This document shows positions 16,780-23,524 of a stretch of DNA of 64,000 bases, one piece after another (positions within the stretch are counted from its first letter, which is position 1; each line of letters starts with the position of its first letter). This DNA comes from Prosthecobacter debontii (lineage in GTDB: Bacteria > Verrucomicrobiota > Verrucomicrobiia > Verrucomicrobiales > Verrucomicrobiaceae), in NCBI GenBank assembly GCA_945860295.1, contig CAMAQH010000019.1, positions 1 to 64,000 of the forward strand, read 5' to 3'. Made by a program: the position numbers and the translations under genes. The notes under the pieces were generated by a model, which was not told the DNA's origin, made no database searches, and saw only the letters and a program-made list of their open reading frames with translations.

Positions 16780-17553
16780 TTGACCGCTGATTATATCACC
16801 AGCTTCTCTGATGTCCGCATGGGCGGACTCATTGAGGAGTTTTTTAAACGCAATCGTCGCCGTTACGGCTACCGCAGGATTCATCAGGAACTCGGCGATC
16901 ATGACGTCGTGTGTGCTCCCTCTAGACTGCGCCGGATCATGAAGCAGAGGCAACTGCGGGCTATCCAGCCGAAGAACTTCCAGCCCAAAACCAGTGATGG
17001 CCAGGCGGATCGGCCTTGTGCAAACCTGCTGGCTAGCGAGTCTCTGCCTCAAAAGCCTGATCAAGCCTGGGCTGGGGACATCACTTTCATCCCCACCTCA
17101 ACAAGCTGGCTTTACCTCGCCGTGGTCATTGACTTGAGCTCACGCCGTATCGTGGGTTGGAATCTGGCCACGCACATGCGGGCGGAACTCGTCGTCCATG
17201 CCCTGGAGCAGGCCTTACAGGCGCGGCCAGCAGCGCGGGGAGCCATCTTCCATAGCGACCGCGGCAGCCAGTATGGCAGCGGTGCATTCCGCTCGGTTTT
17301 GGAACGTGCCGGTCTGCGCCAAAGCATATCCGCACGGGCCAATCCGTATGATAACGCCTGGACGGAATCCTTCATGGGCATCCTCAAGCGCGAGATGCTT
17401 CAGGGCGGCTGTTTTGAAGATGTTACTGATGCTCGGCTGGAACTCTTCGAATACATCGAAGGCTACTACAATCATCAACGCAAACACTCCGCTCTCGGAT
17501 ACCTCACCCCAAATCAGTTCAAAACCCAAACCCATAACCAACCCCTAAATTAA
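16780..17553 (+). mobile_element. IS3-family transposase (OrfB), 5' truncated
   Basis: The 257-residue frame is the integrase part of an IS3-type transposase. An HTH_21-like region (RRRYGYRRIHQEL) is followed by the rve domain. The DDE triad is visible: Asp in WAGDITFIPTS, Asp in FHSDRGSQY, and Glu in WTESFMGILKREM. The C-terminus is complete (YYNHQRKHSALGYLTPNQF). The N-terminal 30-40 residues usual for OrfB are missing and no OrfA lies upstream, so the copy is truncated at its left end and probably cannot move on its own. Terminal inverted repeats were not identified. Confidence 0.88.
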
Positions 17554-17756: not shown

Positions 17757-17823
17757 ACACCTACGTAAAAACTGGATGCCATGTTCCCGGTCAATCTGTC
17801 ACCCATCTGCCCGGTCCGAAACG

Positions 17824-19179
17824 TTATTGGATCAAGCTCAGGGCGCGCTCAATGCGGATGCCAAGGGATTTTTCCAGGGACATGACCGCTTCCTGGTAGG
17901 CTAAAAGGGCGGATAGTCGGCTGATTTCCATCTGCTGTGATAGGTCCTTAAATTCATGCTGTATGCGTCTGCTTTTGATCAGGTCATCGACTCCCGTTGC
18001 AGCCATTTCAGAGTCATTCAGAGACTTTTTCATGTCGGACTGAATGGCATCCCTGTCTTTTTCGTGGCTGCCGAGCTGAGTTTCCAATGAACTGACGAGA
18101 TCCACAGCTTGCTTCACTTCAGTGCTTATGATTTGACGCTGCATCTCGATTTTGGTCTCCAAGGATTGGCTGGCGGCTTCATGGACTTGATGTTGTTTGT
18201 TAAATCCGACCCAATCCCAAAGCGGTATGGAGACACCGACTCGGGCAAACCATTCTTCGTTGTTATTTCTACGGCGTGTGTCGTCCGTATTGGTGTAACC
18301 AAGGTCGATAAAGGTCGTAGCGGGGATGCGTCGTGCTTTGACTTCTGAAAGTTGAGCGAGTGCCACTGCGAGTCGAGCCTGATCACTTAAAACATCCTGT
18401 CGATAGAGCATGGCGATGCTAGTCAGATACACGACGTCCAGTAAGTTAGGGGCAGTGATGCGGCGGGAACGAATGCTAGTATCGATGCGGCTGGGGTCCT
18501 CTAATCCGCAAAAGATGGCTAATTCATCACGCACAGCGGTGCTCTTGCTCTCCAGTTCACGGATGTCGGACAGCGTCTGATAGACCTTGGCCCGAGCGGC
18601 GGCGAGATCCAATCCGAGGCTAGGCACCTTTCTCTCTTCCAACCAGTCGCGGTGAGATTCAAAGCCAGCTTTTCGGCTTTTTTGAAGGTCTAGTTTTGAT
18701 CTCAGTATGGCTAATTCATAGAACAAGCTGCGCACTTTGCGGACGAGTTCGTCTTCTGCTGCATAATATTGGGCCTCCGCCAAAGTAACCTCAGCTGCGG
18801 CCCTTTGGATTCTGGCTTTACGTTCCCATGGATGCGGCACTGCAAAGCGAAAAAGCAAAGCTTTGCTGATGGCGTTATCCTCAGCATAGCTCAGCCTCAT
18901 TTCAGGATTGACGAGGTCATGCGCGGCACGTTTGAGGGCGATGGCCGTATCGGCTGTACCACGCAGCGCTTCTAAATCTGGACGTCTAGCGATGGCTAGA
19001 AGTGTGAGTTCTCGTTCCCCAAGTTTGCCTCTTTTGGGGATCATCGTGGCGATTGCCTTGGCCGATGGAATCGGTGTGCCTTGACGCTGACTCACCGCTC
19101 TGCTTGGGGCTGGGCTCTTCGGCTCCGCGGCAGAGATTGCGCTGTGGATCAGCAGAATAAGAGCTAGTCGGAGACGCAT
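17824..19179 (-). CDS. TolC-family outer-membrane efflux protein
   Basis: TolC-type proteins form trimeric channels spanning the outer membrane and periplasm. This 451-residue protein has a signal peptide (MRLRLALILLIHSAISAAEP) and the two internally related long-helix halves of the OEP family, with Ala/Gln/Leu-rich segments such as LTLLAIARRPDLEALRGTAD and ALAQLSEVKARRIPATTFID. Length fits the family. It is the last gene of a minus-strand operon, 14 bp after the HlyD-type gene. It is presumably the outer-membrane exit for whatever that adaptor serves. Confidence 0.87.
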   Translation of the reverse strand: MRLRLALILLIHSAISAAEPKSPAPSRAVSQRQGTPIPSAKAIATMIPKRGKLGERELTLLAIARRPDLEALRGTADTAIALKRAAHDLVNPEMRLSYAEDNAISKALLFRFAVPHPWERKARIQRAAAEVTLAEAQYYAAEDELVRKVRSLFYELAILRSKLDLQKSRKAGFESHRDWLEERKVPSLGLDLAAARAKVYQTLSDIRELESKSTAVRDELAIFCGLEDPSRIDTSIRSRRITAPNLLDVVYLTSIAMLYRQDVLSDQARLAVALAQLSEVKARRIPATTFIDLGYTNTDDTRRRNNNEEWFARVGVSIPLWDWVGFNKQHQVHEAASQSLETKIEMQRQIISTEVKQAVDLVSSLETQLGSHEKDRDAIQSDMKKSLNDSEMAATGVDDLIKSRRIQHEFKDLSQQMEISRLSALLAYQEAVMSLEKSLGIRIERALSLIQ

Positions 19180-19193
19180 GGACGATTTTACTT

Positions 19194-20291
19194 TTACAGG
19201 GCAGGTTCGTTGGCTGAGCTTGGGGATATCATTAAGCTGACTAACTCGCCGGGTCTCAGTTTGATATGGGGCGGCAAAGAAACATCAATTGGTAGGCCAA
19301 CCTCTGGCGTTGGGTTCGGATGCAGGGCGGGATTGAGGATTGGCTCAAAGTGCACGCCGACTCGGCTGATAATGGCGTTACCGATCAGGTGTTTTTTGGC
19401 ATGCGTGCGCACCTCGACCTTCTGGCCAATCGCGGGCTCCAGAGGAAATGGCTGACGCAAATATCCTGTGATGCTCTTAGGCTCTACGGCTGTGAGCTGG
19501 AGTAACGGCTCGCCGGCAAGGACATTTTCACCCATATTGCGAAGCACTAAGGTAATCATGCCGTCTATTGGCGCGCGGAGTTGAATAGCTTCTTGGCCGA
19601 TAGCTATTTTTTGGAATCGCTCCTCCACAAGAGTGATCTTTTTTTTCCAAGTCTTAAGGTTATCTTGAGTTGTGGGGTCCATGCTGTGGCGAAGTTCTTC
19701 GATTCGATTGCCAAGTGTGGCGACCAGAATTTGACGTTCGATGACTTCGGTATCGGCTGCCTCTTTGGCTAGCTGGGTTTCTTGCTGGTAGCGTCCAATG
19801 GCTGCTGGAGGCGTAGTCACGCCTTGGGTTATTTCCAGAGTAGCGGCGGCGCTTTTAGCGACTGAAGCGGCCTTCGAGAGATTGATTTTTTCGATCATCC
19901 AATCGAGCTGTAGCCTCTCAAAGTCCATGGTTTCACGAAGTTTTGCATCACTATTATCGGCCTCAATTCGAAGGAGATTAAGCTCGTTCTGCAATAGATC
20001 CAGAGACTGACGGGTATTCGTGGCACGCACTTCGGCGATCACGTCACCGGCTTTCACCATGGTTAATTGCTGTGAGTGTATGCGGATGACTTCAGCAGCC
20101 ACGGGACTGTTGATATTAAATTTTTGGGCCCTGACTTCTCCTACGAGCATGGCTGGAGAGATAGCCTCTTTCCAAAGCATGGCCGCCATGATGGCGCTCA
20201 TACCGAGAACTATGAGGGGCACGATTTTCGTCTGCATAAACTGCAGTTTTCGTGCTAGCGGGATCGGAATGGGTTGTTTGTTAGGCCTCAT
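19194..20291 (-). CDS. HlyD-family periplasmic adaptor (membrane fusion protein)
   Basis: The 365-residue protein has a single N-terminal membrane anchor (about residues 24-45, IVPLIVLGMSAIMAAMLW). A biotinyl-lipoyl-like half (VAAEVIRIHSQQLTMVKAGD), a helical hairpin at about 75-215 and the second lipoyl/beta-barrel half (IQLRAPIDGMITLV) follow. These are the parts of adaptors that bridge an inner-membrane pump to a TolC channel. Its start overlaps the stop of the DUF4956 gene by 4 bp and the TolC gene follows by 14 bp, so the three are translationally linked. No ABC or RND transporter gene is adjacent. Confidence 0.87.
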   Translation of the reverse strand: MRPNKQPIPIPLARKLQFMQTKIVPLIVLGMSAIMAAMLWKEAISPAMLVGEVRAQKFNINSPVAAEVIRIHSQQLTMVKAGDVIAEVRATNTRQSLDLLQNELNLLRIEADNSDAKLRETMDFERLQLDWMIEKINLSKAASVAKSAAATLEITQGVTTPPAAIGRYQQETQLAKEAADTEVIERQILVATLGNRIEELRHSMDPTTQDNLKTWKKKITLVEERFQKIAIGQEAIQLRAPIDGMITLVLRNMGENVLAGEPLLQLTAVEPKSITGYLRQPFPLEPAIGQKVEVRTHAKKHLIGNAIISRVGVHFEPILNPALHPNPTPEVGLPIDVSLPPHIKLRPGELVSLMISPSSANEPAL

Positions 20292-20971
20292 ACTTCGGTT
20301 TCATTCTCAGCAGCGATGGTGTGGATGCGCTCGACGCCTGATAGTTCACGTAGATCTTGAACCAGTTCTTCGAATCGGCTGGGGTCACGCATTAACAAGC
20401 GATATGATATATCAGTCCCGCCTGCCAGGGAACTGTGACGACTGGCCTGTAGGGCCGTTAGAGTGTGAATGGCTAATAAACTGGAAAGCTCAGGTAATTC
20501 GCTGATTGGGCGTTTCCAGCTCAGATTCAGGATATAGTCGTAACTCTGACGGGAGCCGAATGAGGTGAAATAAAGATACACAAATATAGCGCCGAGAACG
20601 ACGCATCCAATGATGGCAGTGGTGAATCGCTGTGTGCCTGCGGCCATACCCAAAACAATGGCTGCTAGAAGAAAACTCGTATCCAGAGTGTCTCTCAGAA
20701 CATTGCGGAAGCGCACAATGGCTAACACGGCCATGAGTCCAAATGCGGTGACAATGCTGTTGGATAAAATCATCAAAACAAAAGCGACGATCACGGGCAT
20801 AACGACCAGTGCTTTCACAAAGGAGCGCGAGTAGGAGAGTCCACTGTGAGTGCGCGTGTAGAGCCAAGCAATGCAGTGACCGCATAGAAAAGCGATGAGC
20901 AATGATAAAGAGACAATACGGTAATCGATCGGGGTCGCAGTGAGGTCGCCTTGGAAAATCTGGTCAAACAT
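20288..20971 (-). CDS. DUF4956 multi-pass membrane protein
   Basis: The 227-residue protein has an N-terminal half of about four membrane helices (roughly residues 20-40, 50-72, 75-92 and 100-138). Between them is the conserved-looking segment FGLMAVLAIVRFRNVLRDTLDTS. A cytoplasmic C-terminal half of about 80 residues ends in an ACT-like strand-helix-strand pattern (ISYRLLMRDP, then FEELVQDLRELSGVERIHTI). This matches the DUF4956 family, whose biochemical function is not established to my knowledge and which commonly sits beside VTC-domain genes. It lies between the VTC gene (86 bp upstream) and the HlyD gene (4-bp overlap). It is therefore the only candidate inner-membrane channel or pump in this operon. 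Confidence 0.82.
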   Translation of the reverse strand: MFDQIFQGDLTATPIDYRIVSLSLLIAFLCGHCIAWLYTRTHSGLSYSRSFVKALVVMPVIVAFVLMILSNSIVTAFGLMAVLAIVRFRNVLRDTLDTSFLLAAIVLGMAAGTQRFTTAIIGCVVLGAIFVYLYFTSFGSRQSYDYILNLSWKRPISELPELSSLLAIHTLTALQASRHSSLAGGTDISYRLLMRDPSRFEELVQDLRELSGVERIHTIAAENETEV

Positions 20972-21057
20972 GTCTTAGCTGAGGCGGTGGGATTTGATAA
21001 TCTGTTGAACCCACACTGTGAATTGTTTAAATGAGCGGGAATGGAGTCTTGCAGTAC

Positions 21058-21807
21058 TTATTGCGTATTTTCGGAATTTCTGACAGAGCTTCTTTGCCCA
21101 GCAAAATGTTGTTCACCGATCAATCGGATACCACCTGCATATTTCGGCCCACCTGTCTGCACAAGGTTAAACATTCGAATCAACTCTAATATCCAATTGG
21201 GAGCGCGGTTGGTGAATTTCAGCTCAATCACTGCATTGCGGCCAAAAACCAGCACAGGATTTACCATGGCCACAACCATGTTAAGATCAAAACAAGGTTC
21301 AGCGCATACTTCACGGTCAATGGTGACGCGCACGGCATTGTCATCCCGACTCTGCCAGGCCTCTCTGTAATATGATACCTTGGCCCTGGGACTGGCTGAG
21401 ATTTGGTGCATCATTTGGTAGAAGCCCGCATGACTGGGAAGGTCTTTGGTTTTTAATGAGCGGGTATCTCCAGCCAGGACATCCATCAAAGCGGCTTTCG
21501 AAACCGTGCAGCGGGTTTTTTGGATGATTTCTTTATGCCTGCGCTTGAGTTCTAGGAATGCAGGAGACTCTGGATTTTCGTCATAAAAGCGGATGCGTAA
21601 TTTGAAGCGGTTTCTATCTCCCTGTCTGAATGCGTGGTAAGTGTAAAGGTCGTCTGAGTCCAAGTAGATGCTGTGAATCCTGTAGGAGCAGTCTTTTGAT
21701 TGGGAGGCAAACTCGTCTAACGCCAAGTGGGATGAAATAAACGACCTAACTGCGTAAGTGATTGATTCTGGGACGATGTATTTTATCTCGTAGCGCTGCG
21801 CCTGCAT
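21058..21807 (-). CDS. VTC-domain polyphosphate polymerase-like protein
   Basis: The VTC domain is the catalytic tunnel domain of yeast Vtc4, which makes polyphosphate from ATP. The basic and acidic residues expected to line the tunnel are visible: RYEIKYIV, YRIHSIYLDSDD, NRFKLRIRFYDE, FLELKRR, VRVTIDRE and VIELKFTN. Catalytic competence is therefore plausible. The ATG at 21807 gives 249 residues and leads directly into RYEIKY; a TTG at 21849 would add 14 residues. No SPX domain or membrane anchor is fused to it. It heads a four-gene operon with DUF4956, HlyD and TolC genes. Confidence 0.82.
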   Translation of the reverse strand: MQAQRYEIKYIVPESITYAVRSFISSHLALDEFASQSKDCSYRIHSIYLDSDDLYTYHAFRQGDRNRFKLRIRFYDENPESPAFLELKRRHKEIIQKTRCTVSKAALMDVLAGDTRSLKTKDLPSHAGFYQMMHQISASPRAKVSYYREAWQSRDDNAVRVTIDREVCAEPCFDLNMVVAMVNPVLVFGRNAVIELKFTNRAPNWILELIRMFNLVQTGGPKYAGGIRLIGEQHFAGQRSSVRNSENTQ

Positions 21808-21955
21808 TCCTTCAATAATCAAGAAACTGGAATTCTGTAAAGAACTCAAATGGGGATTTGAATTTTGCAGATGGTAAATGTAAATAAATTTAGTCAGTGA
21901 GATGCTACGAATATTTGGACCAAAAGGAAAGTTAGTTGGCGAGGGCTAGGTCGGC

Positions 21956-22099
21956 CTAAAAAGAAGCGGGAGATTGATACGAGAGCGAGGAGTGCAGGCA
22001 CTGCGTGTTGTAGTAGGAATTGATATAAGCAAAGTGTGCCCATTCTTCTAAATCCGATGATATGCGCGGTCCACACTCCATTTTTCCACAAAAGAAGAA
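21956..22099 (-). pseudogene. IS3-family transposase C-terminal remnant
   Basis: On the minus strand a short frame reads RFFFCGKMEC, then FAYINSYYNTQCLHSSLSYQ and SPASF. This matches the end of IS3-type OrfB proteins, which typically read ESFF..LK.EC, then F.YI..YYN..R.HS.LGY.SP..F. The catalytic Asp residues are absent and flanking frames are broken, so it is an old fragment. It lies between the murG end and the VTC operon. The rest of the gap (to 22411) shows nothing else I can name. Confidence 0.6.
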
Positions 22100-22411
22100 A
22101 CGCTGCCGGACGGCCAAAAGGGCTCGAGGGGAAGCCGATGTTTCCGATCTTCCGCGCAAAAATTATCCGGCGCTGCCTGGAGAAGCTGTATAACATGCTT
22201 TGCGTTGGCGAGGTGATGGAGCTGGTGCAGCAATGCGGTAACGACCCTTGACACACCTTTTGCCGATCTCAGTGACGAAGCTCTCAGATTAAGATGAACG
22301 AGCTGATCACCGTACTGCTGCGCTGAATGACCATGAAGTCGAAAGCGTTTACGCATAAGTCGCTATTGAATACGTAGCGGACTGGGCATGATCAAGACTA
22401 CCTGCTAGTGG

Positions 22412-23524
22412 CTAAGAGCTGCCTTTGACGATGAGGTCAGCGATCTTTTCGGCGGCATTGCGCACGGCTAGTTTATTGGCCGCACGCTTCATGGCGTCGG
22501 ATTGCTTTGGATTCATGAGGATGCTGCGGACAGCATCGGCCAGAATCTCGGCGTTAATATCTTTCTCGATCAAGAGCTTGCCGGCACCCGCGCTGTCGAA
22601 AATCTCGGCATTACACGTCTGGTGATCTTCTGCGGCGAATGGATAGGGGACGAGCAGACTGGGGACGCCGAAGTAGGCTAGTTCAGCCATCGAGGATGCT
22701 CCGCTGCGGGCGATGGCGAGATCGGCAACGCGGTAAGCGAGATCCATGCGATGGCAAAAGGCCGCCACATGCTGTGGCAACAATGGGTGCTTAGCATAGA
22801 CGTCACGCACTTCTTCATAGTCGGTGGGTCCGGCGATGTGCAGGACTTGGATGCCCATTTTCTCAAACTGCTCCAGCGTCATGCCGACGACACGATTAAC
22901 GCCACGCGCGCCCTGGCTGCCACCCATAATGAGAAGTGTTTTCTTGGTCTTATCGAGCTTGAAGAACGCATGAGGATCTTCCTTCCCCGCCTGACGCATG
23001 ACGCTGCGAATCGGGGTGCCGACGACGCGGACGTCTGTGTGTTTTTCAAAGTGCGCTTTGCAAGCTTCAAGCCCACAAAGGACGATGTCGCTATAGCGAG
23101 CATTGAGTTTATTCGACTTACCTGGTATGGCGTTGCTCTCGTGAATCAGGGTTCGGCACGTCTCCTGTCGGCCTGCATAAAGTGGTGCAAAGGAGGTGAA
23201 GCCACCCATGCCGAGCACGACATCGACTTTGTGGTCGCGGATGATTTTGCGGCATTGCTTCATGCCATTCCACAAGCCGGCAAGAAAGCCGATCATCTTC
23301 GGCGACCAGGGCCTCGGCATGGCCAGAAAGGGCATTTTTTCAAAGCGTAGTTGCTTGTGTCCAGAGGCAGCGATGGCATCAATTTTCTTCTCGCTGATAA
23401 GGATGGTCACATCATGACCAAGTGCGAAAAGAACCTCTCCGACGGCGATGCCAGGAAAAAGATGACCGCCAGTGCCGCCGCAGGCGATGAGCACATGGAT
23501 GGATTTTTTGGGTGCGGATTTCAC
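22412..23524 (-). CDS. murG: MurG, lipid I to lipid II GlcNAc transferase
   Basis: MurG adds GlcNAc to lipid I on the inner face of the membrane, giving lipid II for peptidoglycan. The 370-residue protein starts at GTG. It shows the N-terminal GGTGGHLFPGIAVGE loop, the EKKIDA segment, HESNAIPGKSNK, the second glycine loop MGGSQGARGVN, and the UDP-GlcNAc site RSGASSMAELAYFGVPSLLV. Length is normal. It follows ftsW by 5 bp and is the last recognisable gene of the dcw cluster here. Confidence 0.96.
   Translation of the reverse strand: MKSAPKKSIHVLIACGGTGGHLFPGIAVGEVLFALGHDVTILISEKKIDAIAASGHKQLRFEKMPFLAMPRPWSPKMIGFLAGLWNGMKQCRKIIRDHKVDVVLGMGGFTSFAPLYAGRQETCRTLIHESNAIPGKSNKLNARYSDIVLCGLEACKAHFEKHTDVRVVGTPIRSVMRQAGKEDPHAFFKLDKTKKTLLIMGGSQGARGVNRVVGMTLEQFEKMGIQVLHIAGPTDYEEVRDVYAKHPLLPQHVAAFCHRMDLAYRVADLAIARSGASSMAELAYFGVPSLLVPYPFAAEDHQTCNAEIFDSAGAGKLLIEKDINAEILADAVRSILMNPKQSDAMKRAANKLAVRNAAEKIADLIVKGSS

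Follow-up and report, generated by a model that had tools for sequence, protein, structure and literature searches.

A VTC-DUF4956-HlyD-TolC operon in Prosthecobacter debontii and related bacteria: a candidate polyphosphate export system

Background

The yeast VTC complex (Vtc1/Vtc3/Vtc4) couples polyphosphate synthesis to membrane passage by way of a basic channel (PMC9911596). In Gram-positive bacteria, a VTC-DUF4956-CotH module occurs in the Pel cluster of Streptococcus intermedius (SIR_1594-1592; PMC7112168, PMC12345266), and in Bacteroides DUF4956 is paired with DUF2490 (BT3498-99; PMC10434189). Bacterial VTC homologues are widespread, and we found no characterised one. The way in which bacteria bring polyphosphate to their exterior is also, to our knowledge, unexplained. 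Here we describe a four-gene operon in a window of 64,000 nucleotides, part of contig 19 of the 4.68-Mb assembly of Prosthecobacter debontii, that encodes a VTC-domain protein, a DUF4956 membrane protein, a HlyD-family periplasmic adaptor and a TolC-family outer-membrane channel. No published description of VTC or DUF4956 linked with HlyD or TolC was found in the one paper collection searched. The parts are known; their assembly, its conservation across the phylum and its link to CotH appear to be new. The interpretation we favor, tentatively and with rather less than even confidence, is that in this diderm polyphosphate, or a close polyphosphoryl polyanion, is exported through DUF4956, HlyD and TolC as it is synthesized.

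A recurrent operon without a pump gene

The four genes are tightly packed on the minus strand, with 86 bp between VTC and DUF4956, a 4-bp overlap of DUF4956 and HlyD, and 14 bp between HlyD and TolC (Table 1). Open reading frames and Pfam matches agree in this with a preliminary description of the window, and also in finding no ATP-binding cassette (ABC), major facilitator superfamily (MFS) or resistance-nodulation-division (RND) gene in the cluster. Promoter and terminator scans gave no signal above expectation. The ratio of nonsynonymous to synonymous substitution rates (dN/dS) against three congeners is 0.02-0.24 for all four genes, indicating purifying selection. Together with the recurrence of the gene order in the phylum, this rules out a chance cluster or an artefact, and the operon is genuine.

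A Pfam search for VTC over a draw of 289 genomes from the phylum found it in 57, and 65 VTC loci were read, 60 at first and five later. DUF4956 adjoins VTC in nearly all of them. The gene directly after DUF4956 is HlyD in 32 of the 65 (27 of the first 60 and all five later ones), with TolC next in 21. A second set, made up of 80 named loci, contributed 58 contigs beyond the first, with HlyD in 56 and TolC in 46; its query alignment came mostly from the adaptor clade, so that these counts are biased towards that clade. The second-set sources were metagenome-assembled genomes (MAGs) labelled Kiritimatiellae, Lentisphaerae, Opitutae and Verrucomicrobiales, plus Pontiella sulfatireligans. The direct linkage of VTC-DUF4956 to adaptor and channel, which the preliminary description had put forward from this one locus, therefore extends well beyond the genome in which it was noticed. 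Gene distances among the operon genes co-vary (Mantel r 0.81-0.95). No fifth gene family is common to many loci, nor is there a recurrent ABC, MFS or RND pump in 60 neighbourhoods. A dedicated pump nearby was rejected, the downstream genes being unrelated and variable by Pfam (DUF6807, DUF3616, POR, IMPDH, amidase, Dus and others).

The adaptor subfamily is essentially confined to this setting. An adaptor profile run over the 289 genomes gave 30 matches of at least 250 bits, all 30 beside VTC-DUF4956. Just below 250 bits come pieces of this system, either fragments at contig ends or split genes. One related HlyD-TolC pair (L174:4354-7259, minus strand) lies apart from VTC-DUF4956, which its genome carries at another locus (L058), and one locus (L173) has a single unlinked adaptor gene scoring 209 bits. 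The general adaptor background reaches at most 120 bits, and the two background adaptors that were read adjoin double ABC ATPases. No close relative of the adaptor was found in the plasmid collection. Nor does a dedicated transporter pair with this HlyD subfamily elsewhere in the 289 genomes, a pairing that the preliminary description had raised as an objection to its own proposal.

In its AlphaFold2 (AF2) model (predicted local distance difference test, pLDDT, 89.5) the adaptor has an N-terminal membrane helix (residues 12-43), a split lipoyl domain, a hairpin (93-232) whose arms are about 65 residues long, and a beta-barrel. EmrA is its best match by sequence and by structure (Foldseek, 4tko, E 9e-17); the low TM-scores are what a flexible protein of several domains should give, and the likeness to EmrA therefore rests on domain order and E-value. 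EmrA partners the MFS pump EmrB, and DUF4956 thus occupies the place of EmrB here.

An alternative is that the adaptor and channel work with an ABC or MFS transporter whose gene lies at another place in the genome, their placement in the VTC operon reflecting co-regulation only. In other bacteria different pumps share TolC homologues, further TolC-like genes occur in the genome of the window, and the likeness to EmrA would itself suggest an EmrB-type partner. Given that no transporter recurs in any neighbourhood, and that the adaptor subfamily is tied to DUF4956 and not to a pump, we consider a shared pump very unlikely.

The VTC protein as a putative polyphosphate polymerase

The VTC profile matches yeast Vtc4 structures (3g3q, E 2.7e-24), and K9, R71, R73, K88, R148, E195 and K222 of the window's protein align with K200, R264, R266, K281, R361, E426 and K458 of Vtc4. 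K200, K281, R361 and K458 are tunnel or catalytic positions of Vtc4. R264, R266 and E426 are catalytic, and mutating them inactivated yeast VTC (PMC9911596). All seven aligned residues are invariant in 101 of 101 adaptor-linked VTC copies, and they are identical in the window and in all full VTC copies, whichever gene sits downstream. The basic and acidic residues that had been picked out by eye as being of Vtc4 type are thus borne out by alignment. The protein consists of the VTC domain only, with no SPX domain, no fused transmembrane domain and no stretch resembling a membrane helix. We regard it as a putative Vtc4-type polyphosphate polymerase. A role as a replacement for PPK1 was rejected, since PPK1 is present in the window's own genome and in 46 of the 57 VTC genomes.

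DUF4956 and the case for regulation

The AF2 model of the DUF4956 protein (pLDDT 84) has five long helices (residues 17-41, 49-68, 73-91, 95-112 and 116-135), where about four had been expected from the sequence. The ACT-like tail noted at the same time is upheld: a C-terminal alpha/beta domain (143-222) superposes on ACT/ferredoxin-like domains with Z of about 9-10, and the MgtC C-domain 2lqj is among its Foldseek matches. No full-length match to a solved fold was found, only the tail being effectively tested. Residues Y38, R87, F88 and R89 are invariant across relatives, and the RFR motif would face the cytosol if the tail is cytosolic.

The MgtC profile PF02308 gave weak matches in 16 of 18 DUF4956 relatives (E up to 1), the best at 4.7e-6; the window's protein has no match at E 0.1, its similarity to MgtC lying below the Pfam cut-off. 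In hhalign comparisons of DUF4956 with MgtC the probability was 74-84%. The streptococcal homologue was already read as MgtC-ACT in 2025 (PMC12345266), so this part of our description is not new.

These observations bear on an alternative in which the locus is a regulatory module. The MgtC-like DUF4956 would use its ACT-like domain to sense the status of phosphate or nucleotides and would control VTC or envelope biosynthesis; VTC would make intracellular polyphosphate or modify an envelope component, and HlyD-TolC would export a different product under DUF4956 control. The weak MgtC matches, the higher of the hhalign values (84%) and the ACT-like tail speak for this, as does the fact that MgtC acts on PhoR and ATP synthase. 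In S. intermedius, moreover, deletion altered the amount of Pel and did not abolish it. Regulation leaves unexplained why an EmrA-type adaptor should overlap DUF4956 and be essentially confined there, and why no inner-membrane transporter recurs. We judge it unlikely, but take it seriously.

CotH and the alternative partners of VTC-DUF4956

Two features of these loci go beyond the preliminary description: an association with CotH and the use of alternative outer-membrane partners. Where HlyD is missing, the neighbouring gene is usually CotH (21 loci). CotH is present in 54 of the 57 VTC genomes and in 21 of the 232 others (Fisher 3e-37). Counted by genus, it occurs in 39 of 42 with VTC and 10 of 110 without (Fisher 2e-23), and within the window's genus in 4/4 VTC carriers and 4/44 others (3.6e-4); all of these tests ignore finer phylogeny. 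The single CotH protein of the window's genome is encoded by a frame of 3484 aa on another contig (contig 33; L224:1058-11509, plus strand), unlinked to the operon, and carries Calx-beta, LTD, PA14 and CotH domains. Its congener counterpart has a signal-peptide-like start. A PPK1 gene lies about 12 kb from the CotH gene on contig 33. On Bacillota plasmids the genes are arranged as VTC-DUF4956-CotH or CotH-VTC-DUF4956, and no outer-membrane gene is present.

Secreted CotH kinase-like proteins might use the exported polymer, or phosphate derived from VTC-DUF4956, as donor or ligand. Export would still occur, and its end would be the phosphorylation or mineralisation of surface structures by CotH, not a polyphosphate coat. 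The co-occurrence of CotH and VTC at all three levels, their frequent adjacency, the Bacillota arrangement and the large multidomain CotH of the window's own genome are consistent with such a supply. CotH uses ATP, however, CotH occurs in 21 genomes of the draw that lack VTC, and the CotH gene of the window's genome stands apart from the operon. We think this outcome distinctly unlikely.

In six loci (L035, L039, L044, L045, L048 and L063) the gene directly after DUF4956 encodes a porin instead of HlyD-TolC, and in three of them the two genes overlap by 4 bp. The porin of L039 matches Porin_O_P in Pfam, and the others share 41-43% identity with the first sequence in the set. On a Hymenobacter plasmid, TolC comes directly after DUF4956. 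The DUF2490 partner in Bacteroides is presumably an outer-membrane barrel. As Porin_O_P includes phosphate and polyphosphate uptake porins, the one match to it could point to import, the conduit or porin bringing in phosphate or polyphosphate that VTC then stores. Against this, the porin profile search matched no OprO/OprP structure, PPK1 is already in the genome, and the HlyD-TolC systems known to us all export. Import is highly improbable.

Proposed synthesis-coupled export

Under the export interpretation, VTC would polymerise phosphate from ATP at the cytosolic face of the inner membrane. DUF4956, with its five helices and a cytosolic ACT-like regulatory domain, would dock VTC and pass the chain through the inner membrane, and the EmrA-like adaptor would link DUF4956 to TolC, through which the chain would leave the cell. 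Polymerisation and the inside-negative membrane potential would drive the polyanion outward with no need of a separate pump, as may be compared with yeast VTC, and this would explain why a pump is missing. The likely destination is the cell surface, the site of large CotH-domain proteins. Export would also explain why an envelope or surface component often comes after DUF4956. Of the coupled export suggested in the preliminary description, the gene linkage without a pump stands as observed; we infer that the product is polyphosphate, that transport is outward, that DUF4956 serves as conduit and that CotH proteins use the polymer.

Several observations weigh against export. The Vtc channel is lined with many basic residues, which the helices of DUF4956 do not have; the conserved arginines of DUF4956 lie at the end of helix 3. 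Its membrane part seems distantly akin to MgtC, which is known as a regulator, and this kinship leaves room for a regulatory role. Many relatives, including the window's nearest outside its genus, have no adjacent TolC, and the CotH-only loci have no outer-membrane partner. In S. intermedius, deletion of the DUF4956 homologue raised Pel polysaccharide, and no phenotype was reported for deletion of the VTC homologue (PMC12345266).

If the export interpretation is true, the operon offers a genetically compact and testable route for polyphosphate export, a first job for DUF4956, and a tripartite exporter able to work without a classical pump. Its recurrence across the phylum suggests that it may be a dedicated route for placing polyphosphate outside the cell, and the near-obligate company of CotH would tie VTC chemistry to secreted kinase-like surface proteins. 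A broader proposal is that these loci represent tripartite envelope machines of a new class. A cytosolic polymerase and an MgtC-like membrane protein would replace the pump, and polyphosphate synthesis and the membrane potential would drive the polymer through DUF4956, HlyD and TolC to the surface for use by CotH proteins. This we find rather unlikely.

Origin and surroundings of the window copy

VTC is carried by four of 48 congeners. Three congeners carry all four genes at one conserved site, with VTC 81-92% and TolC 79-94% identical to those of the window. The congener operon has a fifth gene, the weakly Phytase-like DUF3616, which overlaps the TolC stop by 4 bp (L210:3817-4815, minus strand) and is absent from the window. 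Homology between window and congeners ends sharply at both ends of the shared block, at 17820 and 21857. The genes that flank the congener operon are found on contig 43 of the window's genome, 73-74% identical and without VTC. Given 91-92% identity in the operon and 74% in the flanking genes, the most likely history is that the operon arrived at its new site in one piece, the fifth gene being left behind. Co-transfer of CotH with the operon was rejected, as the CotH proteins differ by 31-41% and the operon by 9%.

Upstream, about 0.5 kb (21894-22410) between the operon and the open reading frame at 22412-23524 holds weak overlapping frames only and resembles decayed sequence. In several Verrucomicrobiales MAGs, a gene of about 316-321 aa lies 4-42 bp after TolC (L106, L108, L109, L112, L116, L129, L131 and L151); in L116 it is DUF6807 by Pfam.

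Table 1. Operon genes and associated features in the window (TTM, triphosphate tunnel metalloenzyme)
Feature	Position	Strand	Evidence and remarks
VTC-domain protein, 249 aa, soluble	21058-21807	minus	PF09359 E 8.8e-40; expected to have a TTM fold of Vtc4 type; putative polyphosphate polymerase
DUF4956 membrane protein, 227 aa	20288-20971	minus	PF16316, 38.7 bits (cut-off 30.6)
HlyD/EmrA-type periplasmic adaptor, 365 aa	19194-20291	minus	PF13437 E 3.1e-6
OEP/TolC-family outer-membrane channel, 451 aa, signal-peptide-like N-terminus	17824-19179	minus	PF02321 E 7.6e-13
Block of about 4.04 kb, 91-92% identical to congener operon	17820-21857		blastn of congener loci L210/L211 against the window
IS3-family transposase, orfB-like	16780-17553	plus	PF00665 rve E 5.4e-26, PF13276 HTH_21; borders the operon downstream; neighbour, outside the system

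Comparison with known systems

The DUF4956 protein shares with the MgtC family (PF02308) an ACT-like C-terminal domain, and its membrane part may be distantly similar, whereas its operon context is one of synthesis and envelope passage, not of magnesium or virulence regulation. With the Gram-positive Pel-cluster module the window operon has in common the pair of VTC and an MgtC/ACT-type DUF4956, and, at the genome level, the association with CotH. It differs in having HlyD and TolC after DUF4956 and a CotH gene that is unlinked to the operon; pel genes were not seen beside the operon, no search having been aimed at them.

The EmrAB-TolC pump likewise combines an adaptor of membrane helix, lipoyl domain, hairpin and barrel with a TolC-family channel, but the window operon has DUF4956 in place of the MFS pump EmrB and co-encodes a polymerase. 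Compared with HlyD-TolC tripartite exporters generally, it has an adaptor of the membrane fusion protein fold and a TolC-family factor without a co-encoded energised ABC, MFS or RND pump. Like the yeast VTC complex, it has a catalytic TTM domain of Vtc4 type in which all key residues are kept, and it sets this polymerase beside a membrane protein with no separate pump. The eukaryotic enzyme has SPX and fused transmembrane domains that the bacterial VTC does not, and DUF4956 is, as far as we could see, unrelated to the Vtc transmembrane region. To the polymerase and membrane protein, the window operon adds two further proteins, which span the periplasm and the outer membrane.

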